Assembly: GCA_938002665.1 (NCBI GenBank)
Contig: CALLAE010000114.1
Location: 1-56,948, forward strand
Reading direction: 5' to 3'
Length of the DNA stretch: 56,948 nucleotides
Source of the DNA: an uncultured Saprospiraceae bacterium
Lineage (GTDB): Bacteria; Bacteroidota; Bacteroidia; Chitinophagales; Saprospiraceae
This document shows, one piece after another, positions 4,895-23,883 of the stretch; the stretch's first letter is position 1; every line of letters starts with the position of its first letter. Made by a program: the position numbers and the translations under genes. The notes beneath the pieces were generated by a model. The model saw only the letters and a list, made by a program, of their open reading frames with translations. It searched no databases and was not told where the DNA came from.

Positions 4895-6151
4895 ATGAAG
4901 GAAATTCTTGTATATGCGCAATGGAAAGGGCTGGGGGTTCCGCAATTAATGGGAGTACTGACTACTGAGCTGTTGAGAGGTAAAGAGATCTTTTCTTTTT
5001 CTTATGAAAAATCATGGCTAGGTTCTGGCTTAGCTCAGGAACTCGATTCTGATCTAAAACTGTATAGCGGTCCTCAATACTTGAATGATGACAAGCCCAA
5101 TTTTGGTTTATTCCTTGATTCTTCCCCTGATCGCTGGGGTCGAGTATTGATGAAAAGAAGAGAAGCAATAGAAGCGAGAGAAGAGGAAAGAAAGGCAAGC
5201 CCCTTATTCGAATCAGATTTCCTACTTGGTGTCAACGATGAGACCCGTATGGGTGCATTGAGATTTAAGCTAGAAGCCGATGGCCCTTTCCTCAATGAAG
5301 GAATCGAAATGCCAACTCCTCCTGTAAGTTCGATTAGGGAACTAGAACAAGCTAGCCTCAGATACGAAGAGGATGACTTTATGGACGATGCAAAAGCTAA
5401 GGAATGGCTCCGACTATTGATGGCGCCTGGTTCTTCTCTCGGCGGTGCCAGACCCAAAGCTAATGTGAAAGATTCAGCTGGGAATCTTTGGATAGCAAAA
5501 TTCCCCAGCAAAAATGATGAAAGAGATAGTGGCGCATGGGAATATATCTGCTATCAGATGGCCAATGATTTTGGCATTCATATGGTTGAATGTAGAGCAG
5601 AGATTTTTTCGAGTAGTCAACATACTTTTCTGACTAAAAGATTTGATCGTTCCATAAATGATCGATTACACTTTGCTTCTGCAATGACATTGCTAGGATA
5701 TAAAGATGGTCATAATCATAATGAAGGTGGATCCTATTTAGAGATCATAGAACTGATAGAGCAATATGGAGCAGCACCTACAGAAGATATACGTCAACTT
5801 TGGAAACGAATCGTATTCTCTGTAGCAGTATCCAACACAGATGACCACCTTAGAAATCATGGTTTTCTACTCATTCCCAAGCACGGTTGGAAACTGAGTC
5901 CCGCCTTTGACATCAATCCTCTACCTGATGGACAAGGACTTAGCCTAAATATCGACGAAATTGACAACAGCCTGAGTTTCGACCTTTGTATGGCAGTGCA
6001 TCCCTACTTCAGATGGCAAGAAACAGAGGCTATGAAAGAAATTGAAAAAATGAAAGAAATATTAAAAACCTGGGAAGTCAGAGCAAAAAAAATGAAACTT
6101 AATAGAACTGAAATAGAATCAGTAAGGCCAGCCTTTGAAAAAGTCGTCTAA
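4895..6151 (+). CDS. hipA: HipA-like serine/threonine kinase toxin
   Basis: HipA kinases arrest growth. E. coli HipA phosphorylates glutamyl-tRNA synthetase; the target here is unknown. The 418-residue protein has the HipA N-terminal subdomain (about 1-125) and kinase core. 'SSLGGARPKANV' at 180-191 corresponds to the phosphate loop holding the autophosphorylation serine. 'NTDDHLRNHGF' at 314-324 supplies the catalytic Asp316 and Asn321, and 'PAFDINP' at 336-342 supplies the metal-binding Asp339. All key residues are present, so it should be active. It lies one base after hipB, and the pair sits between exact 26-base direct repeats. Confidence 0.88.
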   Translation: MKEILVYAQWKGLGVPQLMGVLTTELLRGKEIFSFSYEKSWLGSGLAQELDSDLKLYSGPQYLNDDKPNFGLFLDSSPDRWGRVLMKRREAIEAREEERKASPLFESDFLLGVNDETRMGALRFKLEADGPFLNEGIEMPTPPVSSIRELEQASLRYEEDDFMDDAKAKEWLRLLMAPGSSLGGARPKANVKDSAGNLWIAKFPSKNDERDSGAWEYICYQMANDFGIHMVECRAEIFSSSQHTFLTKRFDRSINDRLHFASAMTLLGYKDGHNHNEGGSYLEIIELIEQYGAAPTEDIRQLWKRIVFSVAVSNTDDHLRNHGFLLIPKHGWKLSPAFDINPLPDGQGLSLNIDEIDNSLSFDLCMAVHPYFRWQETEAMKEIEKMKEILKTWEVRAKKMKLNRTEIESVRPAFEKVV

Positions 6152-7387: not shown

Positions 7388-8713
7388 CTAGATATGATTA
7401 TTAATGATATTCTCTAGCAACTCTTGCTGCCCGCTGATTTGCTCCGGCTCGCCCTTTTTGAGTGCCAGCTCCGCTAAGTCCCTTAGACTTAATTTTCCTT
7501 GCGCAAAAGCCTTCCCCTTTCCTCTATCAAAAGAAGCATAACGAGTCTTTCGTATCTTTTTGTAATCAGAATTCTTAAGCACTTTCTCAGCCGTAAGCAA
7601 GGCTCTAGCAAAAGCATCCATCCCACCTATATGCGCATAGAACATATCCGTCAGGTCCGTAGAATTCCGTCTTACCTTCGCATCAAAATTGATACCGCCA
7701 CCCTGCAAGCCGCCCGACTGCAGCAGCACCAGCATGGCTTGTGTCAGCTCAAAAAGATCCATCGGAAACTGATCTGTATCCCAGCCATTCTGATAATCTC
7801 CTCTATTAGCGTCCATAGATCCTAGTACTCCAGCATCGGCTGCTACCTGTAGCTCATGTTCAAAAGTATGAGAAGCTAAGGTGGCATGATTGACCTCGAC
7901 ATTTATTTTGAAATCCTTCAACAGGTCATACTGCCTTAGGAAACCTATTACTGTGGCGCTATCGAAATCATACTGATGTTTTGACGGTTCCATAGGTTTT
8001 GGTTCTATAAAGAATGACCCTTTGAATCCTCTGCTACGAGCATAATCTTTAGCCTTATGTAGGAACATGGCTAAATGCTCTTGCTCTCTTTTCATATCAG
8101 TATTGAGCAAAGACATATAGCCTTCTCTCCCACCCCAGAAAACATAGTTTTCACCGCCTAGCCTAATGGTTGTATCAAGTGCATTTTTGACCTGAGCAGC
8201 AGCGTAGGCGACGACATTGAAGTCAGGGTTTGTAGCAGCACCATTCATATACCGTGGATGGCTAAATAGGTTAGCTGTACCCCAGAGCAATTTTATTTTC
8301 GATTTCTTTTGTTTTTCTAAGGCATACTTAGAAACTTTCAGAAGGCGTTTTCTAGATTCATTGAGGTCAGCTCCTTCATCTACCATATCCACGTCATGAA
8401 AGCAATAATACTTTACTCCCAGCTTGGTCATAAACTCAAAGGCAGCATCAACTTTATCCATGCCTCTTTGTACTGGATCAGTAGCAACATTCCAAGGTAA
8501 GTGTCGTGTGCCAGGACCGAAAGGATCTCCTCCCGTGTTACACAAGCTATGCCAGTAGGCGATGGCAAATTTGAAATGTTTCTCCATGGTTTTACCCATA
8601 ACTTTCTTCTTTGCCTCATAGTACTTAAAAGCCAAAGGGTCCTTTGATCGTGGTCCTTTATACTTTATTTCTCCTACACCTTTGAAGTATTCTGTCTTGC
8701 CTTTTAGTATCAT
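7388..8713 (-). CDS. xylA: Xylose isomerase
   Basis: XylA converts D-xylose to D-xylulose in the cytoplasm using two divalent metal ions. The 441-residue protein is of the longer class II type. Visible active-site features are 'CFHDVD' with His106 and Asp109, 'FIEPKP' with metal ligand Glu237 and Lys239, '[17 protein letters not shown]' with Glu273 and His276, and 'GSMDANRGD' with Asp301. 'WGGREGY' at 193-199 is also diagnostic. It lies 18 bases downstream of the xylulokinase gene in the same transcript and is followed two bases later by the small membrane-protein gene. Identity is secure. Confidence 0.96.
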
Positions 8714-8731
8714 TTTGTTTAAGGTTTTTGA

Positions 8732-10660
8732 TTAGAGGTTTGCAAAAAATGCACTCAATGATGTGCCTTTCGGCAAATCCAATTTTTGTCGTAGCCTATA
8801 TCTTTTCGTCTCTGCACCTCTATAAGAGAGATTCAGTTCTTCTGCTATTTGTTTGGTCGAAAATTTCATATGTAAGAAATAACCCAGCTTCAGCTCTTCA
8901 TAACTCAGTTCTGGATACTGCTTCTTAATTTCTTCTACTATAGGATTTGACATCATAGTAGTCTGGTCTATCAGTTCCGCGCTTTTATGAGAATCTAATT
9001 GCTTCAGTAATTTCGGCAAAGCATGGATATTGTGATCTATTTGCAACTTATTTATAGTCTTTTTTATTTGCTCTAGTTGTTTCTTTTGAATCTCTATTAA
9101 CAAAGACTGCTGAGCTATTACTTTATCCTTTTTAATTAACTCTTTAGTGTTTTCAGAACTTGCACCAGAATCAGAACTAAGTAAGTCAGCGAGAGCATCC
9201 TTCCAAGCAGCAAAGGCTCTTTTGTAATCACTATAATTATTATGATCAGGCTTATACACTTTCTTAGCTTGCACACTAGACATTACTTTCCTGATAGATT
9301 TATAATGTCCGCAGCCATGACCTGCAGCTAGCGCTGCGCCTACAGCACCGGTCGTCTCCACCACTTCTAAGTCTATTCCTAACAAAGTAGCGATGGTGGT
9401 AGAAAATACTTTAGACTGGAACATGTTATCATTCCCAACTCTTAACGTCTTTATCTCTAAACCTATTTCTTGCAATAGATGTATACCATAAACGAAGGTA
9501 AATGCAACACTTTCTATAGCTGCTCTGTAGATATGTGCTCTTGTATGTCTATTGAACTCTAAGTTGAGAATATGACTTTCTAGATTTCGATTATTAAAAA
9601 TTCTTTCTGCCCCATTCCCATATGGAAAGATACAGACGCCTTCAGCACCTACAGGCACACCAGCGAGCATGCGCTCCATATCATCATAGCTGCGTCCAGA
9701 CAATGCTATCTGGCTTCTTAACCAACTATACTGGATACCAGCACCATTGATGCACAAAAGGACACCTATTCTATTTTTCTTGTCTTTGTGATTGACATGT
9801 GCGAAAGCATTTATTCTAGACTGCTTATCGTTGACTGCTTTATCCACAACTCCATAGACAACACCTGAAGTACCACACGTAGCTGCAATTTCTCCTGGTT
9901 CTAGTACATTAAGAGAAAGAGCATTATTTGGTTGGTCACCTGCACGATAGGAGACTTTGATACCAGCAGTCAGTCCTGTTTGCTCTGCAGCTACTTCATT
10001 GACCAGTCCCGAAACGCTGAAGGTTGGCTTTGGTTCTGGAATAAGGTCAGTACTGATACCATAGTAATCAAGTAGCTTGTGGGCTAAGCCATTTTCTTTG
10101 AAATTCCATAAGACACCTTCAGAAAGACCGGAGATAGTCGTGCTTATTTCACCAGTAAGTTTCATAGCTATGTAATCTCCAGGAAGTAAGATCTTATCTA
10201 TCTTCTCATAGACATCGGGCTCATTGTCTTTGACCCATTTTAATTTACTGGCTGTAAAATTACCTGGCGAGTTTTGATAATTATCTAAACAAAAATTCTG
10301 ACCCAGTGCATGGAATGCCTGATCTCCTATGGATACAGCGCGACTATCACACCAGATTATTGAAGGCCTCAAAACTTGTTGATCTTTATCTACGACTACT
10401 AGGCCATGCATCTGGTAGCTGATACCAACGGAAAGTATATCAGAGCTTTTAATTTTATTCTTTTCAATAATTTTTTTGGTGCCTAAACAAAGATAGCGCC
10501 ACCACAACTCAGGTTGCTGCTCGGCCCATCCTTTTTGTCTAGAGATCATATCCATTTCTATCTCAGGATACTGCACGATATCTATGACCTTTTTTGTATC
10601 AGCAGAGACTAGTGCCGTCTTGATAGAAGAACTTCCTATATCATATCCTAATAAATACAT
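8732..10660 (-). CDS. xylB: Xylulokinase fused to a C-terminal helix-turn-helix DNA-binding domain
   Basis: Residues 1 to about 495 are a complete FGGY-family xylulokinase. 'GYDIGSSSIKTALV' is the first phosphate motif, 'QMHGLV' at 83-88 is typical of xylulokinases, 'WCDSRA' lies at 103-108, and 'AGDQPNNALS' holds the catalytic Asp242. Normal xylulokinases end near residue 490. Here the frame continues without interruption through a predicted coiled coil (about 505-545) into a helix-turn-helix at about 572-635: 'YPELSYEELKLGYFLHMKFS' followed by 'TKQIAEELNLSYRGAETKRY' and RLRQKLDL. This resembles the LuxR-like terminal domain of many Bacteroidota regulators. The enzyme makes xylulose 5-phosphate; a second role as a xylose-responsive regulator of this locus is inferred. 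Confidence 0.93.
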   Translation of the reverse strand: MYLLGYDIGSSSIKTALVSADTKKVIDIVQYPEIEMDMISRQKGWAEQQPELWWRYLCLGTKKIIEKNKIKSSDILSVGISYQMHGLVVVDKDQQVLRPSIIWCDSRAVSIGDQAFHALGQNFCLDNYQNSPGNFTASKLKWVKDNEPDVYEKIDKILLPGDYIAMKLTGEISTTISGLSEGVLWNFKENGLAHKLLDYYGISTDLIPEPKPTFSVSGLVNEVAAEQTGLTAGIKVSYRAGDQPNNALSLNVLEPGEIAATCGTSGVVYGVVDKAVNDKQSRINAFAHVNHKDKKNRIGVLLCINGAGIQYSWLRSQIALSGRSYDDMERMLAGVPVGAEGVCIFPYGNGAERIFNNRNLESHILNLEFNRHTRAHIYRAAIESVAFTFVYGIHLLQEIGLEIKTLRVGNDNMFQSKVFSTTIATLLGIDLEVVETTGAVGAALAAGHGCGHYKSIRKVMSSVQAKKVYKPDHNNYSDYKRAFAAWKDALADLLSSDSGASSENTKELIKKDKVIAQQSLLIEIQKKQLEQIKKTINKLQIDHNIHALPKLLKQLDSHKSAELIDQTTMMSNPIVEEIKKQYPELSYEELKLGYFLHMKFSTKQIAEELNLSYRGAETKRYRLRQKLDLPKGTSLSAFFANL

Positions 10661-10696
10661 TTGTATGATTGTAATGAACGCTAGCTTATTAAAGAA

Positions 10697-12880
10697 TTAT
10701 TTCACCTTTATTCTGATAGTGCTCCAGTGAGGCGCACCCAGTTCTAATGACCTCTGAGTAGGTGCAGAAGAAGAGACCATCACCTCATACTCGCCCTTTT
10801 CTAGCTGAAGGTTACCATCAGAATCATAGACACTAAAGGCACTGCTTTCTAATCCAACGGTCACTTTCTGTTTCGAATTTGGACTCAAGCTTATACGCTT
10901 AAAAGCCTTCAGTGATGAGTTAGGGTCCAGTTCAGATCTGTTGACTTTTGAGACATAGACTTGCGCCACCTCATCAATCATTATATCCGAATTATTTGAT
11001 ATTTCAATGGAAAGCTTCAGCTCGTCATTTTTTCTAAAGGTTTCCTTTTCTGCACTTAGTTTACCATATGATATCTGTCCATAACTAAGACCAAATCCAA
11101 AAGGATAAAGTGGCTCCTTATCCATATAACGATAAGTTCGGCCTTGCATATTATAATCATCGAACGGTGGGAGATCTTCTATACTTTGCACAAAGGTTAC
11201 TGGCAACTTACCTGAAGGACTTTTCTTACCGAAGATCAGATCTCCTACCGCCTGACCACCTTGCTCACCAGGATACCAAGCATAGAGAATGGCATCAGCC
11301 ATCTCATGTACTTCTGGTATAGAAATAGCACTCCCCCCAGTAATGACTACGATAAGCTTTTTCGCTTTTCCTCTGAGTAATTTGAGATAGTCTAACTGAT
11401 GGGGTGGTAAGGTGATATACTCTCTGTCCCCATAACTTGGCGAAGCTATTGCCTCCCCTTCTTCTCCTTCTAATAATTGTGTGATACCCATACATGCAAT
11501 AGTAACATCTGCTACTTCAGCTTCTTCAGAAAACCAGTCCATAGGATTTACATTGGGTCTGTCGAGAAGGTTACCTTGAACATATCTTATGGCTGTATGA
11601 TCAGAGACATTACTAGCTATACCTTCTAACATTGTTCTCATATCATCACTTATCCCATAATAGTTAGCTAGCAGCGCTTGCGCATCAGCAGCAGTGGGTC
11701 CAGTCACAAATAGGTTCCTCAGTTCTGGATCTAGGGGAAGTAGCCCGTCCTCATTTTTCAAGAGTACGACAGATTTAACCGCAGACTCATAAGTTAAATC
11801 TAGATGCTCTGGAGATCTCACGACCTTAGTTGTGATAGTATCACTCATTACGTTTCCATCGTCAAAGAGGCCTAATCTAAACCGAGTAGGCAAAAGTTCT
11901 TTAAGATTTCGATCTACCTCATCTTCTGTTGTTAGTCCTGCTTTTATTGCAGCACCTATTTCAGGATAGGTGTTTCCACAATTGAGATTACAACCGTGCT
12001 TCAGAGCGAGTGCTGCTGCTTCCTTTCTATCTTTGGTCAATCCATGGCCTTCAAAGAAATCTTGTAAGGCCCAACAGTCAGAAACAAAATACCCTTTAAA
12101 ATTCCACTTATCGCGGAGCACATCTTGCATGAGGTAGGAATGAGCGCAGCAGGCTTCACCATTTGTTCTGTTATAGGCACCCATAACACCTTCTACTTTA
12201 GCTTCTGTTACTAATGCCTCAAAAGCAGGCAGATAAGTATTCCACAGATCATAATCAGAGACTACTGCATCAAAGTTATGTCTATCTTTTTCTGGACCAC
12301 TATGCACTGCAAAATGCTTTGCCATAGCTGCTACTTTGAGATACTTACCTGTACCCTGCAGACCTTGTACAAAAGCAACACCTATACGACTTATTAGATG
12401 GGGATCTTCGCCATAGGTTTCCTGTCCTCTTCCCCATCGAGGGTCTCTAAATAAATTTACATTAGGTGACCAATAGGTCAGCCCAGCATATCTATCCATA
12501 TAGCCTGTTTTCTTATTGGCATTAAATTTTGCTCTTCCTTCTAAGGCAATTGCAGCACCTATCCTCTGCATTAGGTCTACATCAAAAGTTGCTGCCATAC
12601 CTATAGCCTGAGGAAAGATAGTCGCCTTGCCGTTTCTTGCTATTCCATGCAAGCATTCGTTCCACCAGCTATAATGTGGTATATCCAATCTCGGAATGGC
12701 AGGTGATTCAAACATAAGCTGCGCTGCTTTCTCTTCTAAACTGAGTTTAGAGACCAAGTCATCGACTCTTTCAGATATGCTAAGATTAGAATTTAGATAT
12801 GCCGCTTTCTCGTTCTGGGCATAAGCTACCCTAGCTGTACTGAAAAGTACAACTAGACATAAAAGAGAAATAGTTTTCAT
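10697..12880 (-). CDS. GH3 beta-xylosidase/beta-glucosidase, exported
   Basis: This 727-residue glycoside hydrolase of family 3 has a signal peptide (cleavage near residue 21, VAYAQ). The (beta/alpha)8 domain includes 'YWSPNVNLFRDPRWGRGQET', KHF at 188-190 and the nucleophile Asp268 in 'GYFVSDCWAL'. The second alpha/beta domain spans about 370-590 and a fibronectin-III-like domain about 615-725. 'SWWNECLHGIAR' near 71-82 is typical of the xylosidase-like branch. It has no T9SS tail, so it is probably periplasmic. There it would cut xylo-oligosaccharides to xylose after SusCD import. It is 9 bases downstream of the GH10 gene. Confidence 0.92.
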   Translation of the reverse strand: MKTISLLCLVVLFSTARVAYAQNEKAAYLNSNLSISERVDDLVSKLSLEEKAAQLMFESPAIPRLDIPHYSWWNECLHGIARNGKATIFPQAIGMAATFDVDLMQRIGAAIALEGRAKFNANKKTGYMDRYAGLTYWSPNVNLFRDPRWGRGQETYGEDPHLISRIGVAFVQGLQGTGKYLKVAAMAKHFAVHSGPEKDRHNFDAVVSDYDLWNTYLPAFEALVTEAKVEGVMGAYNRTNGEACCAHSYLMQDVLRDKWNFKGYFVSDCWALQDFFEGHGLTKDRKEAAALALKHGCNLNCGNTYPEIGAAIKAGLTTEDEVDRNLKELLPTRFRLGLFDDGNVMSDTITTKVVRSPEHLDLTYESAVKSVVLLKNEDGLLPLDPELRNLFVTGPTAADAQALLANYYGISDDMRTMLEGIASNVSDHTAIRYVQGNLLDRPNVNPMDWFSEEAEVADVTIACMGITQLLEGEEGEAIASPSYGDREYITLPPHQLDYLKLLRGKAKKLIVVITGGSAISIPEVHEMADAILYAWYPGEQGGQAVGDLIFGKKSPSGKLPVTFVQSIEDLPPFDDYNMQGRTYRYMDKEPLYPFGFGLSYGQISYGKLSAEKETFRKNDELKLSIEISNNSDIMIDEVAQVYVSKVNRSELDPNSSLKAFKRISLSPNSKQKVTVGLESSAFSVYDSDGNLQLEKGEYEVMVSSSAPTQRSLELGAPHWSTIRIKVK

Positions 12881-12889
12881 ATGGATCTA

Positions 12890-15007
12890 TTATAAAATTA
12901 GGAGTCTCTTAGAAAGACTTCCATCAGTAGTTGTTATCTCTAAGTTATAGGTGCCAGCAGACAAATAAAGATTTTGAACTTCATCTGACAAAACATTAGT
13001 CCTGCTCAGAACTTGCTTTCCAGAAACATCGTAGATAGATATGTCTACTGTAGAATATTTATTTGGAAACTGCAATGTAACTTGACCTTGCGTTACAGGA
13101 TTGGGCGAAACGACAAAATCGGTAGAATCCAGCTCTTGGACAGAATCCACATCCCCCAATACTACATTTAATTCCTCATCAGCACCTAGCAACATTTCCA
13201 CTTCTGTAGTCATGCCGTCTTTACTGACGATAATCTTATGTTTCCCTTTGAATGGTCTAAAGCTTGCCCGCCCATCAGCACCAGAAATGTTTTCTTCTTC
13301 TGTCCACCAGTCGTTAAATACTTTCTGAATAAACATTTCCCCTGAGGGCTTCAGCGTCCAGTCTTCTTCAAACATTGGTGCATTGGCCTTCCAGTGATTG
13401 CCATCCCAAAAACCCCACATAATAAATGCATCCATACCTGGATGGCTAAAAGTTAAGGTTAAAAAGTCACGTAGATATTGAGCTTGTATGCCTTCATCTA
13501 CTGCAGCATTAATATCATATTCTGTAACTTTCATTCGCTTATTATAGCGCTGGTAGAAATCATCGAATATAGCTTCTACTTGAGGTATAGAATTAGGAAC
13601 AGATCCTATATGAGACTGAAACCCTATACCATCAAAAGGCACATCATCATCTTTCAGCTCATCTAAGAAAGATTTATATCTGGCAATCTGTGCCGCGGAG
13701 CCACTAGAAATAGCCATGTAGTCGTTAATGTATAGCTCCAGGTCTGGATCCATTTCTCTGACTTTCCTAAATATTTCACCATACAATTCCCTACCAGTAT
13801 CAAAATTAGGGTCTTTTCTAAACGCTTCTTCTAAAGTTCTGTTAGTGGTTATTTCATTTAACACATCCCAGTCTCTTACAACCTTACTTAATCTAGGTTG
13901 TGTAATCATCTCACTCAATCTAGCATCGATCCTTTGTCTCAGATAATCGAGATTGTCTAGATTGTCATTTATATCTTGAGGCAGGAAGTCACTACCAGGC
14001 CATAATAGATTGTGACCTCTCATAGTTACCCCACTATCATTTAAGTACTCGAATGCACTCACTGTTTGTTCTGGAGTACCCAGCCATTCTTCTTCCCAGC
14101 CTCGCCACTTCAGTGCATTTTCATTGACACATTCATTAAATCCATGACCTTCACCATCCAGATTAAAAATCTTCTGCACATAAGTCTGATCAAAGCAATT
14201 ATTACCTGGGAATCTACATGTTACTAGGGCAGAGCCAAAACCAAATTCATGCTGCTGCATCTCTATACTTACCATAGCCCCTTCCACTGGATTTCCATTT
14301 TTATCAGAAACATTGACAGTAAGATCTGCTTTTCTGAGTCTCTCTATTCTGCTTTCAGCTAAGGCTCTCCAGGGCGCATCTTCCTCTATACCTTCATAAT
14401 TAAATGGAGAGAAACTAGTAGGCAAATCTTCTACACCATATGCGTCCTTATAATTTATAGCTGTAAATCCAGCGATGGTAATATCTTGTGCAGTGGTTGC
14501 AAGATGAAAACCTGCCTTCAATCTTCTAGTGGCAAAACTCTGAGTAGCCTTAAAGGCGACAAAGTACTGGTTCCAATCTGGGGTGAAGTTTAAAGAAAAA
14601 TAGAACTGCTTATCAAAGCTGTTAGCATCTTCTGCAAATACAAAAACTTGAGAACCAGATGAATTTTCTTTTGCCCAAAAAGTCACAAGTATCAAGTCTC
14701 CTTCACTGATAGGTGAAGTGGTTTCTTGTCCCATACCCACATCCCAAGCATTATTTCCTGCTGCTGTTACTACTATCCTTTTACTCAGCGTAAAATCCAT
14801 ATTCACTTCTGAATTATCTCTAAAAGAAGCATTACCATACTGGAATCCTCGCGATGCAAGACCAGCCTCTGTATCAGAAAATATAAATGTACCGCCTTGT
14901 ATATTATGATTCATCGAGAGGTTATCCAAAATACTCTGGTGGTAGGCATCCTGAGAAAAGCATGTAAAGCTTAAGAAGAAACAAAACAGTAGAGAGCTAT
15001 AATTCAT
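12890..15007 (-). CDS. GH10 endo-1,4-beta-xylanase with T9SS sorting domain
   Basis: This 705-residue exported xylanase has a signal peptide (1-19). A carbohydrate-binding-like beta-sandwich spans about 30-185 ('VTFWAKENSSGSQVFVFAED'), followed by an Ig-like linker (226-262). The GH10 barrel covers about 265-610, with 'MRGHNLLWPG', acid/base Glu385 in 'WDVLNE', nucleophile Glu496 in 'KVTEYD' and 'WGFWDGNHW'. The end (about 630-705) is a T9SS type A sorting domain: 'VVSPNPVTQGQVTLQF', 'SIYDVSGK' and 'SKRLLIL'. It should be displayed on the cell surface or released, cutting xylan backbone. An intrinsic terminator lies just upstream in transcription, so its expression may be lower than that of the binding proteins. 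Confidence 0.95.
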   Translation of the reverse strand: MNYSSLLFCFFLSFTCFSQDAYHQSILDNLSMNHNIQGGTFIFSDTEAGLASRGFQYGNASFRDNSEVNMDFTLSKRIVVTAAGNNAWDVGMGQETTSPISEGDLILVTFWAKENSSGSQVFVFAEDANSFDKQFYFSLNFTPDWNQYFVAFKATQSFATRRLKAGFHLATTAQDITIAGFTAINYKDAYGVEDLPTSFSPFNYEGIEEDAPWRALAESRIERLRKADLTVNVSDKNGNPVEGAMVSIEMQQHEFGFGSALVTCRFPGNNCFDQTYVQKIFNLDGEGHGFNECVNENALKWRGWEEEWLGTPEQTVSAFEYLNDSGVTMRGHNLLWPGSDFLPQDINDNLDNLDYLRQRIDARLSEMITQPRLSKVVRDWDVLNEITTNRTLEEAFRKDPNFDTGRELYGEIFRKVREMDPDLELYINDYMAISSGSAAQIARYKSFLDELKDDDVPFDGIGFQSHIGSVPNSIPQVEAIFDDFYQRYNKRMKVTEYDINAAVDEGIQAQYLRDFLTLTFSHPGMDAFIMWGFWDGNHWKANAPMFEEDWTLKPSGEMFIQKVFNDWWTEEENISGADGRASFRPFKGKHKIIVSKDGMTTEVEMLLGADEELNVVLGDVDSVQELDSTDFVVSPNPVTQGQVTLQFPNKYSTVDISIYDVSGKQVLSRTNVLSDEVQNLYLSAGTYNLEITTTDGSLSKRLLIL

Positions 15008-15020
15008 AGTACGTTTTTAA

Positions 15021-15051
15021 TAAAAAGTGGCTGAAGATAACCTTCAGCCAC
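15021..15051 (-). terminator. Intrinsic terminator inside the xylan operon
   Basis: On the minus strand GTGGCTGAAG-GTTAT-CTTCAGCCAC forms a perfect 10-bp stem with a 5-base loop (15027-15051), followed directly by TTTTTA. It lies between the end of the five-module protein gene (15063) and the start of the xylanase gene (15007), where no other strong promoter is visible. Partial termination would set the ratio of binding/transport proteins to enzymes. Confidence 0.8.
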
Positions 15052-15062
15052 CAAAGATATTT

Positions 15063-18017
15063 TTATTCAATAATCAACTTACTGTAAAACGCAGGCTGAC
15101 CATCCAGAGTTACGTGAATGATATACAGACCTGGAAACAGACCAGCAACATCTACTTCTTGATTAACCTTGCCTTTCTGTTGTATTCCCAACTCTTGCTC
15201 CTTCACTACCTTTCCAGTTGCATCCACTATACTAGCTCTTATCTGACCTGTCTTATTTGTTTGCATATCAAGGTAGAGTACATTTAATGCTGGATTAGGA
15301 AATATACGTGCAGACTGAACATTATCATGATCTACTACACTTACAGAAAGTGGCTCACCAAAAGTTAACCAATCTATATGTAACTCCCCGTCAAACATTC
15401 CGATACCTGGATCTATATAAAACTGAACCAAGTCTATCCTCTCTGCATCTACTGGACAAGGCCCCGCATCACATGCTGTCCCTCCAAATCCACCATCAGT
15501 ATATTGACCAGCATAGTTATACTCATAAATCTCAAATTCCGTTGTGAGTGGCTGAGTAAGCCCAGCCTGAGAAGTTAAGAAGCCTGCACCATCTTGCAAG
15601 TCTACTCTCAAAGGCAAGCCATCTACAGTGGACCTTGCTCTTACATATACTTTATCATTATTATTCAGAGCATTTACTAGAACTTTTTCTGCACCCTCGT
15701 GCAACTCATATAGTACAGGACTGAAAGCACCACTTGTTCCGTCACCTATAATTTTCAACTGACCTTCTTCAGCAAGCACTGCTAGACCATCATTATCCGA
15801 AACGAAGTCAAGAGAGTTATCATCCATAGCATCTTTGTAATCATCTATACCTACTGGACCCATGTTATCTATCTCTTCTAGAGGCTCTATAGTAGATATC
15901 CAGTCTATAGTCATCGTACCTGCATAACCACCATTATCTGGATCAATGTAGAACAAGAGTTCTTTGATAACACTTCCGTCTACTGGACAAGGACCCATAT
16001 CACAGGCTGTACCACCATAGCCTCCATCAGTATAGGTTCCTGTGTAATCAAACTCTAACACTGAGTACTCTTCTCCCACAATAGCAGAGGTAGAAGGTTC
16101 TGTAGTTGCAAATCCTTCTTCATCCACGAGGTCTATTCTGAGAGGAGTTCCAGCTACTGTAGATTTAGCCTTAACATATAATTTATTATTGAATGCTATA
16201 TTCACAATTTCTGAATCGCCATTTTCGGTATTATGCAAAGCATAATTAAAAGCAGAATAAGGTCCTGCACTACCATCTCCCGTTAGCACAACTTCTGTCC
16301 CAGCCTCTTCTACTGTAAATCCTCCTGCATCAGACCACTGATCTCTATTGCTATTATCAAAGTGGTCTACATACTGTCTTACATCTTCTCCTAGAGGAGC
16401 TCCAAAAGAAACGTAATCTATTTCCAGACAACCTTCAAAACCTCCATCAGCTGGATTAGGATAAAACAAGACAGTAGAAATCGCCGTAGGGTCTACAGCA
16501 CAGGGTGCTGTCGTAGCATCACAAGGTGTGCCACCGTAACCACCATCCAAGTAGTTTCCAGAAAAATCTAGCTCTATATCTGCATAGTCTGATTCTAATA
16601 ATCTCGTAAAAGAAGGTATAGTTGTTACATAACCTGCAGTGTCCACAAGATCTATTCGCAGCAAAGTATTAGCTACATCTGCTTTCGCTCTTATAAATAC
16701 TTTATTGTTAGCACTTACATCCACAAAGCCACCAGCACCTGTATCCATATCATGTACAGAATAGGCTACAGCAGCAAAAGGTGCATCTACTCCTGTCCCT
16801 GTAATCTTAAAAGTAGAAGCACCCACAGAAAGACCAAATGCACCAGAAGTACTGACATAACTATCATCTCCACTGAAGTGATCGCCATATGCTAACACTT
16901 CATTAGAACCGCCATCACCTTCTAGTGGAGTACCTATAGAGATGTAGTCTATTTCTACATCTCCTACAAAAGCCCCCGAACCGGGGTTGACAAATAATAT
17001 TAAATTAGCAATACGTGCTGCATCTACTGGACAAGGCGCTTGGTCAGAAGAGCATCCTGTACCTCCAAAACCTAAGTCAGAATATCCTCCCGCATAGTTA
17101 TACTCATAGGTTACCCACTCATCAGTGATCGCTTTGGTCACACTGGCAGCAGTCGTCGCCATATCATTGATATCCTGAAGGTCCACACGGATAGTCGTTC
17201 CTGGCGTATTAGTTTTCATTCTGATAAAGACTTTGTCTTGACCATCTGAAACCGGAACGTCTATGGTATCTAGTGTAGTAGGATTAAAAAACAACATATT
17301 GACAGGCGTCCACATCTCTCCTGTTCCATCTCCTGATATTAGCCAGTTAGAATTAGAAATACTATTAACAAGACCGGTGGTAGAAGACATAATGAAACCA
17401 AGTGGATTATCATTATCAAAGTGATCTTGCCATACATCTGATACTGGACCGACAGTCGGAGCAGAACCTACTGAAACAAAATCCAACACAACTGAACCAC
17501 CAAAAGAACCTTGACCAGGATTGATAAAGAATAATAATTGGGTAATATTAGTCGGGTCTACTGGACAAGGTGCAGTCGCCGCATCACACGGTGTTCCTCC
17601 AAAACCACCATCACTCAGGACTCCAGTAAAATCAAACTCGAATACTGTGTAATCGCTCACCAAAGTTTTGGTGACACTACCTATAGTAGAAGCAAAACCA
17701 TCACCATCTTGTACATCTAGTCTTAGTTGAGTACCTAGATTACTTGCTTTAGCTCTGACATAGACTTTATTGTTTTCGGAAATGTCTATGCTCACAGCAT
17801 TTCCTTCGTCATCACTTGGTGATAAAGTAAAAGGGTCCCACGGACCAGAAGTACCATCTCCAGTAATTGTCCACTCACCATTCTCTTCTACACTACTATA
17901 ACCGGAAGGCGTTGTTGCATTCGTTTCTACCCCATCATCAAATTCATCTAGATAAACTTGCCCAATCAGGGGAGCTGTCAAGATAGAAAATACAAAAAGT
18001 GTAAAAATTCGTTTCAT
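15063..18017 (-). CDS. Five-module surface protein (putative xylan-binding) with T9SS sorting domain
   Basis: After a signal peptide (1-20), this 984-residue protein has five tandem modules of about 165-170 residues (21-185, 197-365, 377-543, 549-713, 726-890). Each has an acidic 'DHFDN/DEFDD' start, a 'GDGT/TGTG' turn, 'KVYVRAK..LRxDLxD', 'YxDGGYGGTxC' and 'APCPVD', then 'LLFYxxPxxGxFxGxxxIDxxSxG'. Every module has two close cysteines (144/151, 322/329, 499/506, 672/677, 849/854), probably a disulfide. Residues 895-984 are a T9SS type A sorting domain. No catalytic motif is seen. The repeated beta-sandwich pattern and location next to the xylanase suggest a multivalent xylan-binding protein. 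The module family is not one I can name. Confidence 0.8.
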   Translation of the reverse strand: MKRIFTLFVFSILTAPLIGQVYLDEFDDGVETNATTPSGYSSVEENGEWTITGDGTSGPWDPFTLSPSDDEGNAVSIDISENNKVYVRAKASNLGTQLRLDVQDGDGFASTIGSVTKTLVSDYTVFEFDFTGVLSDGGFGGTPCDAATAPCPVDPTNITQLLFFINPGQGSFGGSVVLDFVSVGSAPTVGPVSDVWQDHFDNDNPLGFIMSSTTGLVNSISNSNWLISGDGTGEMWTPVNMLFFNPTTLDTIDVPVSDGQDKVFIRMKTNTPGTTIRVDLQDINDMATTAASVTKAITDEWVTYEYNYAGGYSDLGFGGTGCSSDQAPCPVDAARIANLILFVNPGSGAFVGDVEIDYISIGTPLEGDGGSNEVLAYGDHFSGDDSYVSTSGAFGLSVGASTFKITGTGVDAPFAAVAYSVHDMDTGAGGFVDVSANNKVFIRAKADVANTLLRIDLVDTAGYVTTIPSFTRLLESDYADIELDFSGNYLDGGYGGTPCDATTAPCAVDPTAISTVLFYPNPADGGFEGCLEIDYVSFGAPLGEDVRQYVDHFDNSNRDQWSDAGGFTVEEAGTEVVLTGDGSAGPYSAFNYALHNTENGDSEIVNIAFNNKLYVKAKSTVAGTPLRIDLVDEEGFATTEPSTSAIVGEEYSVLEFDYTGTYTDGGYGGTACDMGPCPVDGSVIKELLFYIDPDNGGYAGTMTIDWISTIEPLEEIDNMGPVGIDDYKDAMDDNSLDFVSDNDGLAVLAEEGQLKIIGDGTSGAFSPVLYELHEGAEKVLVNALNNNDKVYVRARSTVDGLPLRVDLQDGAGFLTSQAGLTQPLTTEFEIYEYNYAGQYTDGGFGGTACDAGPCPVDAERIDLVQFYIDPGIGMFDGELHIDWLTFGEPLSVSVVDHDNVQSARIFPNPALNVLYLDMQTNKTGQIRASIVDATGKVVKEQELGIQQKGKVNQEVDVAGLFPGLYIIHVTLDGQPAFYSKLIIE

Positions 18018-18033
18018 AGTAAGGATTTATTGA

Positions 18034-19140
18034 TTAAAGAATTTGAATAAATTTTAGGTTATCTATGTTAGCTTCCATCTTTTGGTTTGAACTAAGTTCA
18101 TTAATAAGATGAAGTTTAACTGTTCGTATTTTTTTGGTATCTGGTGTTGCACCATCTAGATCTGCAAATCTATTGAGAGGAATACTCACTGTCTCCCATC
18201 CTTCCCAGTCAATTGCAATCGTCTCCGTAAAATCATTAATACTGCCTCCTCTTTCTGCTAACACGATAATGAGATGTGTATCTTTCCTTCCATTAGAATT
18301 CAAATCTAATTCTAAGAAAGTATCATTCAAGTCAGAAGATATTTCGAAAACCTCAAAGACAGCAGGATCATTAGAATGGCTTTCCGCTCCCCCTATCCAG
18401 CCATCACTTACATCCGCACCAGATAACTTTAAAAAATTACCTTCTATTGGATCAGGTCCTTGGTTAGTAACAGCTGTCATATTATTTTGCTCTATATTTC
18501 CATAGAACAACCACTTCTCCGTTTCTGCTCTTACACCATTACCATCAAAATCATTCACCAGCAATTCATTAGTGGAGAAAAACAACTCTGGTGTAATAGA
18601 GGAGCCACCGTTGGCTTTTACTCTTATTCTTCCTTTCTGTACACCTGCTGGTACTTCTACAACCAAAGAATCCGGCTGGTGATAAATTATATTGCCTGGT
18701 ATAGAATCAAAAAACAACACTTCTAATGGCTCGAAAAAGTTCTTTCCTAGTATCGTCACTTCACTGCCCACATTAGCTGACTTAGGAAAAAAATTAAAAA
18801 CAGATGGAGCATCTAAGGTCACTCGAAAAGGAAAAGAGGTCTCTCCATGTTCTGACACTATCCTTATCATGTTTTCTCCTATTACAGCATTAGGTGGAAC
18901 TCTAAAAAGCAAGGCTTTGTCAGTACCGAAAGACGGGTTAAAATCAGCAGCAATGCCCTCATCAAAGTCGATGGCTAGTAGGTCATTAAAATCGGAACCC
19001 TCTACTGTGATCAATGTTTCTACTGGACCAAAATCTGGCGTAAAACTCATTACCGTAGGTGCTTCTCCAGAATTACATGACATCATAGAGAAGAACACTG
19101 CGACCAAGGCTAGGAGTATAAAATTATTTTTCTTTATCAT
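18034..19140 (-). CDS. TIG/IPT-domain surface glycan-binding lipoprotein (SusE/F position)
   Basis: This 368-residue lipoprotein has a lipobox ending at Cys22 (FFSMMSC). Two IPT/TIG Ig-like domains follow: about 28-110 ('PTVMSFTPDFGPVETLITVE') and about 111-190 ('PSVFNFFPKSANVGSEVTIL'). The C-terminal domain of about 175 residues starts 'LLVNDFDGNGV' and resembles the glycan-binding domain of surface glycan-binding protein B from xyloglucan-type loci. It is encoded one base after susD, the standard place for such proteins. It should sit on the outer face of the outer membrane and hold xylan chains for the SusCD importer. Ligand is inferred from the locus. Confidence 0.85.
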   Translation of the reverse strand: MIKKNNFILLALVAVFFSMMSCNSGEAPTVMSFTPDFGPVETLITVEGSDFNDLLAIDFDEGIAADFNPSFGTDKALLFRVPPNAVIGENMIRIVSEHGETSFPFRVTLDAPSVFNFFPKSANVGSEVTILGKNFFEPLEVLFFDSIPGNIIYHQPDSLVVEVPAGVQKGRIRVKANGGSSITPELFFSTNELLVNDFDGNGVRAETEKWLFYGNIEQNNMTAVTNQGPDPIEGNFLKLSGADVSDGWIGGAESHSNDPAVFEVFEISSDLNDTFLELDLNSNGRKDTHLIIVLAERGGSINDFTETIAIDWEGWETVSIPLNRFADLDGATPDTKKIRTVKLHLINELSSNQKMEANIDNLKFIQIL

Positions 19141-19141
19141 C

Positions 19142-20614
19142 TTAGTATCCTGGATTTTGAGTCAAGTTAGGATTAATAGCTAGTTCAGCTGCTGGTATCG
19201 GAAAAAGGACATTGAAATCTTGAAATTGCTTTCCATGTAACTGCATAGTCTCCTTTACATCCCCTTTTCTGAGCAAGTCAAACCATCTGTGATTCTCAAA
19301 AGCAAATTCTATACGTCGCTCATCGAAGACCATATCTGTGGTTACATTACCTACCTCTTGGAGTCCTGCCCGTCTCCTTATTTGATTAAAGGATTCCACT
19401 ACATCTGGTGTAATAGAAATATCCCCATTTTTTCTGCAAGAAGCCTCTGCTAGAGTAAGTAGCACATCAGCGTATCTGATGGCATGCTGATTCTGAGGTG
19501 TACTCATAAAACAGACATCAGCTCCTCCTCCTATGACATACTTCTTAATATTAATGAGTCCTCTAGAAGCTCCAGTTGGGGGATAAGTGTAGCCGCCAGA
19601 GCTAGGATTGATCATAGGATAGGCATCTCCTGCGGTCATAATAGAGTGATATTTTCTGAGGTCGTTGTCTTTAAAAATATCTTTCGCTGTTGTGCCTGGG
19701 TTATCTATGTTAGGCGCTGTAGGAATCTGAGAACCCCAGCCATCTGTATTGCCTGTTATCGCTTGGCCCCATGGCGCAAAGAAGGCTTGTAAGGCATTGC
19801 CTGTATTGCCAGGACCACAACCGACATACTGAATCTGCCAGATGGATTCGGCATTATTATCACTGACGTCTCTTAACCAATTATTCTCAAAAGGAACCAG
19901 CTGATATCGATTAGTAGTTATGACTGCTCTACATAATTCCATGCTCTCATCATAATTGCCTATTGTCACGAATACTTTAGCTAGTATAGACCTAGCCGCA
20001 TCACTCGTCACCCTTCCAGCATCAGAAGAAGGTCGCACATCAGGTAGCTCACTCACAGCTAGCTCTAAGTCTTCTATAATGAAGTCGTATACCTCATCCA
20101 CTGAGGCTCTAGATACATTCAGGTCAGCATCATTAGTAGGCACTTCAGTAATTAGTGGCACTCCTCCAAAGATACGTACCAAATCAAAATAACTAAAGGC
20201 TCTCAAAAATCTAGCCTCAGCTAGTATACCAGCTTTCTGGATAGGATCCATTTCTACAGGTGGGACAAAAGTTAAAATCTGATTAGCCAAAACCACCAAC
20301 TTAAAATGTTCCGTCCAGTATTCTAGAACCGGTGCATTATCAGGGCTGGTCGTAAAATTATCTATGGGAGAAAAATCAGGATCATTACCTCCCGTAGTTG
20401 TATTATCAGACGGAATTTCTTCTATCATCCAGGATTTTCCGCGCCAGTTGATTGCTTGTATAGCAGTGTACATCGCCTTTGCAGCTAGATCAGCTTCTTC
20501 ACCTGTAGTATAAAAACTACTTGTGGTCAACTCATCCAGTGGTTCCCTATCCAAAAAGTCTTCACAGCCAAACTGAAAAAAGACCAGAATCAATAAAAGT
20601 ATTTTTTTACTCAT
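19142..20614 (-). CDS. susD: SusD/RagB-family nutrient-binding lipoprotein
   Basis: This 490-residue SusD-like protein has a lipobox ending at Cys17 (QFGC), followed by the family signature 'EDFLDREPLDELT'. A helical TPR-like scaffold follows ('AEARFLRAFSYFDLVRIFGGVPLITE') and then the typical ending 'RRIEFAFENHRWFDLLRKGD' and 'FPIPAAELAINPNLTQNPGY'. SusD proteins form the lid of the SusC outer-membrane transporter and capture oligosaccharides. The gene lies 11 bases after susC and 1 base before the TIG lipoprotein gene. Substrate, presumably xylo-oligosaccharides, is inferred from the neighbouring xylanase and xylose genes. Confidence 0.96.
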   Translation of the reverse strand: MSKKILLLILVFFQFGCEDFLDREPLDELTTSSFYTTGEEADLAAKAMYTAIQAINWRGKSWMIEEIPSDNTTTGGNDPDFSPIDNFTTSPDNAPVLEYWTEHFKLVVLANQILTFVPPVEMDPIQKAGILAEARFLRAFSYFDLVRIFGGVPLITEVPTNDADLNVSRASVDEVYDFIIEDLELAVSELPDVRPSSDAGRVTSDAARSILAKVFVTIGNYDESMELCRAVITTNRYQLVPFENNWLRDVSDNNAESIWQIQYVGCGPGNTGNALQAFFAPWGQAITGNTDGWGSQIPTAPNIDNPGTTAKDIFKDNDLRKYHSIMTAGDAYPMINPSSGGYTYPPTGASRGLINIKKYVIGGGADVCFMSTPQNQHAIRYADVLLTLAEASCRKNGDISITPDVVESFNQIRRRAGLQEVGNVTTDMVFDERRIEFAFENHRWFDLLRKGDVKETMQLHGKQFQDFNVLFPIPAAELAINPNLTQNPGY

Positions 20615-20625
20615 AGTTATTGCTC

Positions 20626-23600
20626 TTAAAAATTGACATTAGCACCTATCGTAAACGAACTAGCAACTGGAAATCTTCCATTATCTACCCCATTGATAAG
20701 TGGGTTCTGATTGAATGAGCCTATATCTGGATCATATCCTGAATACTCCGAGGCAGTAAATAGATTTTGTCCACTTACATATAACCTCAAACTAGAAATA
20801 TTTATTTTTTCCAAGAGACTAGAAGGTAATTTGTAACCCAATGAAAGGTTTTGCAAGCGGATAAAACTTCCATCTTCTATAAACCTGTCCGAGACCCTTC
20901 TGTTTGCATTAGGATCTATTCCTGTGGCTCTGGGTTCTGTACCTTCCTGGTTAGTCGGTTGCCACCTGTTTTGGACATCTACGGACTGATTATGCCAGGC
21001 ACCCGTACCTGCAATATCACGGCGCAAGAGATTATAGACCTCATTACCGAAAACACCTCTAAAGAAAACACTAAAATCAAAATTACCTATGGTGATATCA
21101 TTAATAAGATTAACAGTGAAATCAGGATGTGGACTTCCTATAAAAGTCTGGTCATCATCATTTATTACTCCATCATTATTTAGGTCCTCAAACTGTAGGT
21201 CACCTGCTCTAGTACCTACTTCCTGAAAAGCCGCTTCTGCTATTTCTTCAGCACTATCAAAGATACCTACGACTTTATGACCATAGTACTGCCCTATCGG
21301 CTGTCCCTCTTCTGTACGTGTAATAGGTAATGCCTGTACGACTCCTATTATAAAACCTGTATCTCCTAGATCTACAACTTCATTCCTATTCACGGATAGA
21401 TTAGTAGAAGTCCGCCAATCTATTTTACCTACCATGTTCTGAGTAGTCAGACTAAACTCCACACCTCTATTATTCATCCGTCCTATATTTACAAAAGGAG
21501 GAGACAAGGATCCAGCAGTAGCGGGCAAAATAGATTCTAGTAGCATATCCGTAGATGCTTTGTTATAGAAATCTACAACTAATTCTATTCTATTATCAAA
21601 GAGTCCTAAATCAAGTCCGACATTGGTCTGGACTGAGCTTTCCCATTTAACATCCGGATTGGCAATATTTGCTGCGGTAAAAGCCGTAGTTCTAGAATTA
21701 CCTATTACCACATCCACTGGTTGCAAACGCGATACGAAAGAATATAAGCCTATCTCTTGGTTACCTACTGCCCCATAACCTAAGCGCAGCTTCATATTGT
21801 ATATGGGTTCTATACTCTTAATGAAAGGCTCATTAGATAATCGCCATGCAACAGCTACAGAAGGGAAGTACCCAAATTTATTGTTAGCACCAAACCTGGA
21901 CGAGCCATCCGCTCTAAGCGTTCCTGTAAATAGATACTTCTCGTCTAAGTTATAATTCAGTCTTCCAAAGTATGATAGCAGTGCCCAGTGTCCTGCTCCA
22001 CCTATTACATTTTGGGTAGCTGCATCTCCTAGTATCAGCTCGCTCAAAGTGTTAGTTGGTAGATTTTCTCTTACAGCAAACAACCAATCATATTTTCCCT
22101 CTTGCGCTTCGAAGCCAGCAAGAAAAGTCATTTTGTTTTTATCATTGAACGCCTTATTGAAAGTTAGAAGATGCTTGTTATTCCAATAAGTGTTGGTGCC
22201 TGGATTTCTGACAACCTTAGACTTCTTGCTCTGCGTTCCTCTATCATATGCCGGCTCAAAAACGTTGTGATTAGAAAAAAGTAAGTCTGTAGCAAATTCT
22301 GTACGATACTTTAACCATGGCGTTATATCTACCTCTCCATAAAGGCTACCTAGCAATCTTGTCTTAGAATTGACATCGTTTACTTCTAGAGCATTTGCCA
22401 AAGGATTATCAAAAGTCAAGACGATATTTTCACCTGTAGGAGCGACACCAAAGGTGCCATCTAAGCGTCTATCAGGGACCATGGGTGGTGTGAGTAGAGC
22501 TGTATATATAACACCTTTGTCATTATCATTAAAGACAATATTCTCTTTTGTCCTTGAGGTTAGTAAATTCATTCCTACTCTGAATTTCCCTATCGTTTGG
22601 TCCAAATTTAGCCTTGCACTATATCTTTGGAAACTAGATCCCTGTACAATTCCATCTTTGTTATGTGCACCTAATGAGGCCGCAAATCTTGTCCCATCTG
22701 ATCCACCAGACATAGTGATTTGGTGATTACTCATATTGGCCTCTCTGAAAATAACGTCTTGCCAGTCTGTGCCATCTCCTAACAACTCTATCTGCTCGAA
22801 CTCTTCAATGTCTCCTATAGAAACTTGAGAAACATACTCTGCATAATTTAAGAGATTCATCATAGGTATCTCCCTGTATAAGCGCTGCTGGCCCCAGTAT
22901 GTATCATAGCTCACTTGAGTCTTACCCACTACTCCTTTTTTCGTTGTGATAATAACCACACCATTAGCCGCACGTGAACCATATATTGCAGTAGCAGAAG
23001 CATCTTTTAGTATCTCTATAGATTCTATATCATTGGGATTTATGGTAGTAAGTGCATTGGTGTTTTGGCCTTGGCCATCTCTTAAGTAAGAGGTTCCACC
23101 ATTATCACTACTTATAGGAATACCATCTACCACATATAATGGCTCAGTAGACAGAGTAGAACCAGATCCTCTTATCTTGATAGACATAGAACCTCCTGGT
23201 GCCCCACTATTCTGAGTAATCTGTACACCTGCACTTCTTCCTTGCAGAGCTTGTTCCAGACCAGTGTTAGGCAACTGTTTGAGTTCCTTGACCCCTATGC
23301 TAGATATGGCACCAGTAAGATCACTTTTCTTTTGAGATCCATATCCTACAACAATGACCTCGTCAAGAATGGCAGCGTCCTTGGCCAGTAAGATCGTCAT
23401 AGGACCTGATTGTATGGTGACATTTTGATCCTTGTAACCTATATAACTTATGTCCAGGCTAGAAGACTCTTGTACTGACAGGACAAACTCCCCATTAAAA
23501 TCTGTGATAGTGCCATTAGAGGTTCCAGCTTCTATTACACTAGCTCCTATGAGTGGCTCTTTACTGTCTTGGTCGATGACGACACCTGTTACCTCTATGG

Positions 23601-23697: not shown

Positions 23698-23775
23698 GAC
23701 CTATGGCTAATGAATATAATTCTGACACCTGAGAGATTAAGGAATTATATTCTGTAAGTAAAAATATATTGAGAA

Positions 23776-23804
23776 CAAAATAAGGCCTTCTAAAAACTCC
23801 GCAA
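23776..23804 (-). promoter_or_regulatory. Candidate promoter of susC
   Basis: On the minus strand TTG (23804-23802), 18 bases, then TTATTTTG (23783-23776) is one mismatch and one base short of the Bacteroidota pattern. It lies 79 bases before the susC start in a 186-base gene-free gap, leaving room for a leader. Without it, susC would depend on read-through from the symporter gene. Confidence 0.3.
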
Positions 23805-23883
23805 GAAGTATTTTGATTAAAAAAACCCGACAAATACACTTCGTCACAACTACGTCATCACGTCATATGCACTTCAATGCCCT

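Follow-up and report, generated by a model that had tools for sequence, protein, structure and literature searches.

A xylulokinase fused to a NarL-type helix-turn-helix in Bacteroidota: a candidate enzyme-regulator of xylan and xylose genes

The stretch of DNA analysed here (the window, 56,948 nucleotides from an uncultured Saprospiraceae bacterium) carries within a xylan locus an apparent xylulokinase gene that runs on, in the same frame, into a predicted DNA-binding domain. Could one protein both phosphorylate xylulose and control the transcription of the genes that deliver it?

The fused protein and its kinase site

The fused gene occupies positions 8732–10660 on the minus strand as a single uninterrupted ORF of 642 codons (642 aa) with an ATG start, and it was assigned from the ORF, Pfam, NCBIfam, an AlphaFold2 model and its membership of a fused clade in a kinase tree. 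Two Pfam domains score above their cutoffs: FGGY_N at residues 2–245 (9926–10657, minus strand; 165.3 bits, cutoff 28.8), which is also seen in an alignment of 32 fused proteins, and FGGY_C at residues 259–448 (9317–9886, minus strand; 51.7 bits, cutoff 27). The top NCBIfam family is XylB (TIGR01312), with 303.4 bits against a cutoff of 380.25, so “xylulokinase” is our best guess for this protein and not a filed family membership. The full-length AlphaFold2 model (mean pLDDT 82.2), made with the 32-sequence alignment of fused proteins, has a kinase fold, and the xylulose kinases 3ifr, 5vm1 and 2itm rank top in a Foldseek search with it.

Beyond the kinase, the model contains a long helix at residues 502–542 (9035–9157, minus strand), a probable coiled-coil linker whose sequence is variable in the alignment, and a NarL/LuxR-type helix-turn-helix (HTH) at residues 587–627 (8780–8902, minus strand; assigned by AlphaFold2, alignment and Foldseek) with helices at 587–597, 602–608 and 613–627. 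An earlier reading made without database searches (the sequence-only reading) had described a complete FGGY kinase with a LuxR-like HTH tail in one frame, a coiled coil at 505–545 and an HTH at 572–635; the frame and the domains are as it described, and its borders were nearly right. Pfam gives the tail of the window protein just sub-cutoff matches, to Sigma70_r4_2 and GerE at about residues 600–629 (GerE 15.4–18.3 bits, cutoff 23.5). The last 78 residues were also modelled separately with 37 sequences (one tail-only protein and the tails of five Y_Y_Y proteins included), and this tail-only model has a four-helix HTH fold with a pLDDT of 92.5. Among the 50 PDB matches listed by Foldseek for the tail model, E-values are 0.07–0.4 with none ≤0.001, target TM scores for isolated DNA-binding domains are 0.6–0.8, and all 50 targets (DosR, LiaR, RcsB, NarL, TraR and others) are what we take to be NarL/LuxR-type domains or proteins that hold one, in agreement with the LuxR-like assignment. 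The models answer the concern that the HTH might lack a foldable recognition helix: the helix at 613–627 is present, and its residues R614, G615, E617, T618, R620 and R622 are invariant in all 32 fused proteins. In another genome a 177-aa protein (locus L047, 12189–12722) that lies directly 3′ of the fused gene resembles the coiled-coil/HTH tail alone, scores over the GerE cutoff (31.2 bits) and seems to be the DNA-binding half of the regulator copied as a free-standing protein.

The kinase site of the fused proteins appears intact. Their active-site residues align with those of E. coli XylB, and D7, G9, S10, K14, Q83, M84, H85, D242 and Q243 are identical in 32 of 32; D242 had been named beforehand as the catalytic Asp, and we assume that D7, K14, Q83, M84, H85 and D242 serve here as catalytic Asp and sugar-site residues. 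N245 is retained in 26, G409 in 28 and G86 (of the MHG motif) in 29 of the 32. When 144 columns that are nearly invariant in 77 unfused rows (rows that include the damaged fusions L060 and L063 and one outlier) were compared, none had switched in the fused copies and 21 were loosened. We found no sign that catalysis was lost, the checked catalytic residues being identical throughout and no column switched. A xylose isomerase gene adjoins the fused gene in the window, a context in which the protein may phosphorylate D-xylulose.

Distribution of the fusion and its companion kinases

The fusion is present in 7 of 60 relatives, window included (G000, G001, G002, G004, G006, G033 and G036). Relatives of the protein are encoded at 395 places in GTDB contigs; among the best 80 of these 395 (77 loci), 31 are fused, of which 29 are intact, one (L060) is cut by a contig end and one (L063) has its tail out of frame. 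With G000, G001, G036, G096, G133 and G252 added, and contigs met twice counted once, intact fusions are known from about 35 species-level genomes. Judged by title, the hosts are mostly Saprospiraceae/Saprospirales, together with Flavilitoribacter, Chitinophagales bins, Fulvivirga, Roseivirga, Reichenbachiella, Marinigracilibium, one Phaeodactylibacter bin and one Cyclobacteriaceae bin. The window comes from a fragmented draft (180 contigs), as would suit an assembly or annotation join of two genes, but the same architecture recurs in about 35 genomes, named strains of Fulvivirga kasyanovii and Flavilitoribacter nigricans among them; on this recurrence we reject a join, giving it almost no credence, and the fusion is not peculiar to one assembly. 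It is nonetheless rare in evenly drawn samples, with 5 of 198 genomes in the order sample and 1 of 395 in the phylum sample, the window's own, at a stricter cutoff (E ≤ 1e-205).

In a kinase-domain tree of 109 rows (quick method, SH-aLRT support only), the 32 fused proteins all group in a single starred branch; it has 34 rows, the remaining two being L060 and L063, and is what a single origin of the fusion would give. Fused and neighbouring unfused kinases are 52–63% identical, from which we take the split between them to be old. The fused gene of Roseivirga FE80 (L063, 10001–11585) stops after 509 aa with tail-like sequence in another frame, and retains upstream a copy, with two mismatches, of the candidate operator described below; this is possibly decay of the regulator half.

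Many of these genomes hold a further xylulokinase. The search covered 34 fusion genomes, or 32 after removal of two repeats (G062 of G033, G069 of G002), and a second match at E ≤ 1e-60 was found in 27 of 32, those without one being G001, G004, G006, G067 and G085. After addition of G000, G096, G115, G133 and G252 a separate xylulokinase is present in 30 of 37 fusion genomes, often next door (the 37 include the L060 and L063 genomes, and two of the second copies, in G073 and G074, are partial). Such companions would be expected if the fused protein were a regulator only, its folded kinase domain a xylulose sensor with no meaningful catalysis and the xylulose 5-phosphate supplied by the other kinase; so does the Ser that takes the place of G86 in L039, L040 and L054 (3 of the 32 fused proteins), each of which has a separate kinase gene close by. 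Against it stand the identity of the checked active-site residues in all 32 and the window's clade, in whose five draft genomes (G000, G001, G004, G006 and G115) no second xylulokinase match was found at E ≤ 1e-60; completeness is 87.5% for G000, 90% for G001, 96% for G004 and 86% for G006. We regard the regulator-only explanation as unlikely, though it deserves to be kept in mind, and favour a protein that does both jobs.

Gene neighbourhood and a candidate operator

In the window, susC (20626–23697, minus strand; NCBIfam) is the first gene of the predicted target operon, and the remainder (7388–20614, minus strand; predicted from strand and spacing) consists of susD, an SGBP-like gene, a gene for a 984-aa T9SS protein, GH10, GH3 beta-xylosidase, the fusion and xylose isomerase. 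The sequence-only reading saw no further regulator in the locus, and Pfam and/or NCBIfam scans of 14 genes between 6211 and 28508 bear this out. A HipA_C-domain protein (4895–6151, 174.8 bits) lies just beyond the xylan locus on the opposite strand. The 984-aa protein (15063–18017) has a T9SS sorting tail and no other Pfam domain at E ≤ 0.01, has relatives 67–81% identical in the window's clade, and could be a xylan-active protein of a sort that has so far gone unrecognised.

It had been asked whether the fusion always lies inside a xylan locus; it does not, since it can equally be the first gene of a xylose operon or of another susC/susD locus. In genomes beyond the window's clade, what comes after the fused gene is often an unfused xylulokinase with xylA, susC-susD, xylA or a GH3 gene, and the fused gene often stands at the head of susC/susD or xylB-xylA genes. 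The gap to the next co-directional gene is 130–540 bp (median 256, n = 18, window clade excluded), whereas unfused kinases have a median gap of 72 bp (n = 51; p 5e-8); in eight other cases the neighbour is opposite or missing (the opposite one in L036 is a small ORF), and in the three window-clade loci the gaps are 20–76 bp. These arrangements support the view that the fused gene often occupies the spot expected of a regulator gene. Among genes immediately upstream, none of 9 scanned before fused genes is a regulator, and 5 of 10 scanned before unfused kinases are GntR/Peripla_BP regulators, all in Prolixibacteraceae-type loci. In those loci (L083, L084, L088, L096 and L103) the GntR-plus-Peripla_BP regulator precedes an unfused xylB-xylA pair, the very spot that the fused kinase holds in other genomes. 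On one MAG-138 contig (L058 and L066) the fused gene heads xylA and the unfused kinase heads susC-susD, with a composite operator (2 mismatches) upstream of the unfused kinase; by their arrangement, these paralogues seem to have exchanged places relative to other genomes.

The operator was approached by aligning the DNA upstream of susC in the window with that of G004 and G006, which brought out TGACG repeats. In 48 hand-chosen regions, same-strand TGACG pairs are spaced by 11 bp in 19 cases and by 22 bp in 6, and TGACG-N6-TGACG is present in 18 of the 48 regions and in none of 200 shuffle sets; an inverted-repeat operator was rejected, since the 19 same-strand pairs at 11 bp compare with one inverted pair within 40 bp. 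Perfect TGACGTA-N4-TGACGTA, a motif partly derived on the same loci where it was counted, occurs 18 times in 31 fusion loci (573 kb) and once in 69 other loci (806 kb), and that one locus (L062) belongs to a genome that has the fusion elsewhere. This direct repeat of 11-bp period is the probable operator of the fused protein. In 26 fusion loci (window's clade, L060 and L063 excluded) there are 48 sites with ≤2 mismatches, 42 of them either no more than 120 bp upstream of the fused ATG or at −20 to +450 bp relative to its stop; four others precede an unfused kinase gene, one is about 130 bp before the fused gene and one is stray. An upstream site is present in 19 of these loci and a downstream site in 19, and 25 of the 26 have the operator at the fused gene's own promoter and/or at that of the next operon; L085 alone has no site with ≤2 mismatches.

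Across whole genomes, 20 perfect 18-mers were found in 16 of 28 fusion genomes (reversed control, 0), each adjoining a fused, kinase or GH3 gene; the perfect form is insensitive, 12 of the 28 being without one. Among 28 comparison genome handles only G079, which has the fusion, contains a perfect 18-mer (reversed control, 0); of the other 27, G096 also has the fusion and 26 have neither fusion nor perfect 18-mer. In the evenly drawn sets the perfect 18-mer is present in 1 of 7 fusion genomes and 1 of 53 non-fusion genomes among the relatives, and in 1 of 5 and 1 of 193, respectively, in the order; the two non-fusion occurrences (G016 and G264), without the rest of the composite, look like chance. 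Two of 38 kinase loci first labelled unfused-only have a site with ≤3 mismatches: L045, actually a fusion locus, and L075, where the operator before the kinase was seen first and the fusion was then found in its genome. In all three fusion genomes found later a site precedes the fused gene, at a distance from its start of 131 bp in G096, 25 bp in G133 and 6 bp in G252; G133 and G252, not G096, have another in the gap after it. Control in trans of the other kinase genes of fusion genomes was rejected, as just 4 of 16 have a site with ≤2 mismatches (Mann-Whitney p 0.048), and three of those four (G072, G075 and G082) share a contig with a fused gene.

The repeats might instead be the sites of a different regulator, such as a Y_Y_Y sensor with a related HTH; the fused gene would then be one of its targets, and the fused protein an ordinary xylulokinase whose tail is inert. 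HTH tails related to the fused one are indeed present on Y_Y_Y proteins in the genome and the family of the window (the HTH relative in the window's genome, on contig C69, is a Reg_prop/Y_Y_Y protein), and five of the six invariant recognition-helix residues still hold when five such tails are added to the alignment. But the 26 fusion-free comparison genomes, in which we assume Y_Y_Y regulators to be present, have no perfect 18-mer, the operator predicted a fusion in the L075 genome, and the tail with its recognition helix is conserved across the clade. We consider an inert tail quite improbable and the fused protein the better candidate for the factor that binds these sites.

In the window the predicted operator TGACGTAGTTGTGACGAA (23840–23857, minus strand; TGACGTA-N4-TGACGTA with one mismatch, from the alignment with relatives and the motif scan) ends 142 bp before the susC start codon, and extra half-sites TGACG (23861–23865) and TGTCG (23828–23832) extend the array over 23828–23865 on the same strand. 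Two targets had been named in advance; the region upstream of susC (23698–23883) contains this operator, whereas the symporter promoter has no site with ≤2 mismatches and was dropped. The draft genome of the window (3.76 Mb) contains a single perfect copy of the 16-base form, at 23842–23857 before susC; allowing one mismatch gives 7 matches, and 13 for the reversed control, which leaves the perfect copy as the one meaningful match in this genome. Of the clade to which the window belongs, only the window itself and G004 show the site clearly; in G006, where the closest match upstream of susC has 4 mismatches, it is lost or blurred. The fused genes of this clade have no operator site of their own. 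A tentative −7-like element TTATTTTG (23776–23783, minus strand) follows the operator by 56 bp but does not fit the pattern applied to the relatives, and the window has no clear second half-site pair and no strict −7 element.

Promoter geometry was examined in 23 hand-chosen target regions, from which L039, L040 and L057 (best site reversed) were excluded and in which the window and G004, and L042 and L044, are near-duplicates. A half-site TGnAGTA follows the repeat by 25–26 bp in 16 of the 23, and a −7-like TT[CAT]TTTG, a pattern picked after inspecting the sequences, lies 64–68 bp after it in 12 of 23 (0.3 expected). In G133 both elements are 10 bp closer, about one helical turn, before an unidentified ORF. 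Strict −33/TAnnTTTG promoters downstream of target operators were found in only 1 of 22, and the looser pattern was then used. Where the site is at the promoter of the fused gene itself, it lies 0–30 bp before the start in 21 of 24 cases, and TAnnTTTG, the Bacteroidota promoter consensus, overlaps the first bases of the repeat in 7 of 24 (about 0.05 expected). Among 31 fused genes viewed, nine are without an own-promoter site (three of these belong to the window's clade), and L051 has just a reversed one. We read this geometry as predicting activation of the targets and repression of the fused gene.

A possible mechanism and its relation to known systems

The comparative evidence (one clade, a regulator-like position and an operator that tracks the fusion between genomes) supports reading the fused protein as a promoter-binding regulator, while DNA binding, the sign of control, the effector and kinase activity are predictions. 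In the scheme we propose, XylA would make xylulose from imported xylose, xylulose and ATP would bind the FGGY cleft, and closure of the cleft domains or turnover would be passed through the C-terminal coiled coil to the NarL-type HTHs, which would bind in tandem to TGACGTA half-sites spaced by 11 bp. Bound upstream of target promoters they would activate; bound on the promoter of a fused gene that has its own, they would repress. The conserved site and the gene context suggest xylulose as the effector, and FGGY kinases close on sugar binding, according to an extract of PMC3245297, a movement that could relay a signal to a C-terminal domain. Within the clade of the window the fused gene would act as part of the very operon that has the operator at its susC promoter, and enzyme and regulator would thereby be made together with what they control.

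On balance it is probable, in our judgement with a good deal of confidence, that the protein is a bifunctional trigger enzyme: a competent xylulokinase and a local transcription factor of xylan/xylose genes that senses xylulose or ATP. We lean, with less assurance, towards the further proposal that the sole xylulokinase found in the window's clade doubles as master activator of the xylan utilisation operon, a single-polypeptide flux sensor that reads xylulose/ATP occupancy or turnover in the kinase cleft, acting through a phased 11-bp operator array, and that the wider clade is made up of undescribed FGGY-kinase transcription factors in which the two jobs are mostly split between paralogues. 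If true, intracellular xylulose would be linked directly to a polysaccharide utilisation locus, a layer apart from the sensing that hybrid two-component systems or SusR carry out in the periplasm. The defined candidate operator makes the regulator reading directly testable, and the paralogue pairs (regulator-kinase beside kinase), together with the one-protein clade of the window, provide a natural series in which to follow how an enzyme can turn into a regulator and still keep its active site.

Enzymes turned regulators are already known. The trigger enzymes PutA, BirA and NadR combine an enzyme and a DNA-binding domain in one chain and control genes of their own pathway; the fused kinase differs in its enzyme family, its HTH and its place in carbohydrate-utilisation loci. 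The FGGY kinases with an HTH would be a new family within this known kind, enzymes that probably double as DNA-binding regulators, and no sugar kinase with a NarL-type DNA-binding tail, or FGGY-HTH fusion, was found in the open-licence literature. XylB (FGGY; E. coli structure 2itm) shares the fold, a match over the whole kinase length, the catalytic residues and the xylA neighbour, but the fused protein adds a 150-residue C-terminal coiled coil and HTH and falls below the TIGR01312 cutoff; the extract of PMC3245297 gives all described FGGY members as two-domain proteins, FGGY_N plus FGGY_C. BzdR, as an extract of PMC3602430 presents it, is likewise a regulator in which a small-molecule kinase domain is fused to a DNA-binding domain; its DNA-binding domain is N-terminal and its shikimate-kinase-like domain has lost its activity, whereas the fused xylulokinase retains its active-site residues. 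The NrtR-family AraR/XylR proteins of Bacteroides (extracts of PMC4666351 and PMC3878776) are also pentose regulators of Bacteroidota built on an enzyme-like (Nudix) domain, and the predicted xylose regulator of B. thetaiotaomicron, XylR BT0791, is among them (PMC3878776, in part), but this family is unrelated, has a winged HTH and is not itself the metabolising enzyme. The SusR-like and Y_Y_Y/Reg_prop regulators of Bacteroidota share the C-terminal HTH, and predicted SusR-like motifs are also direct repeats; in the same extract of PMC3878776, SusR is a periplasmic maltose binder with predicted repeats at distances of 67 or 77 bp, whereas the fused kinase would be a cytoplasmic sensor with a repeat spacing of 11 bp.
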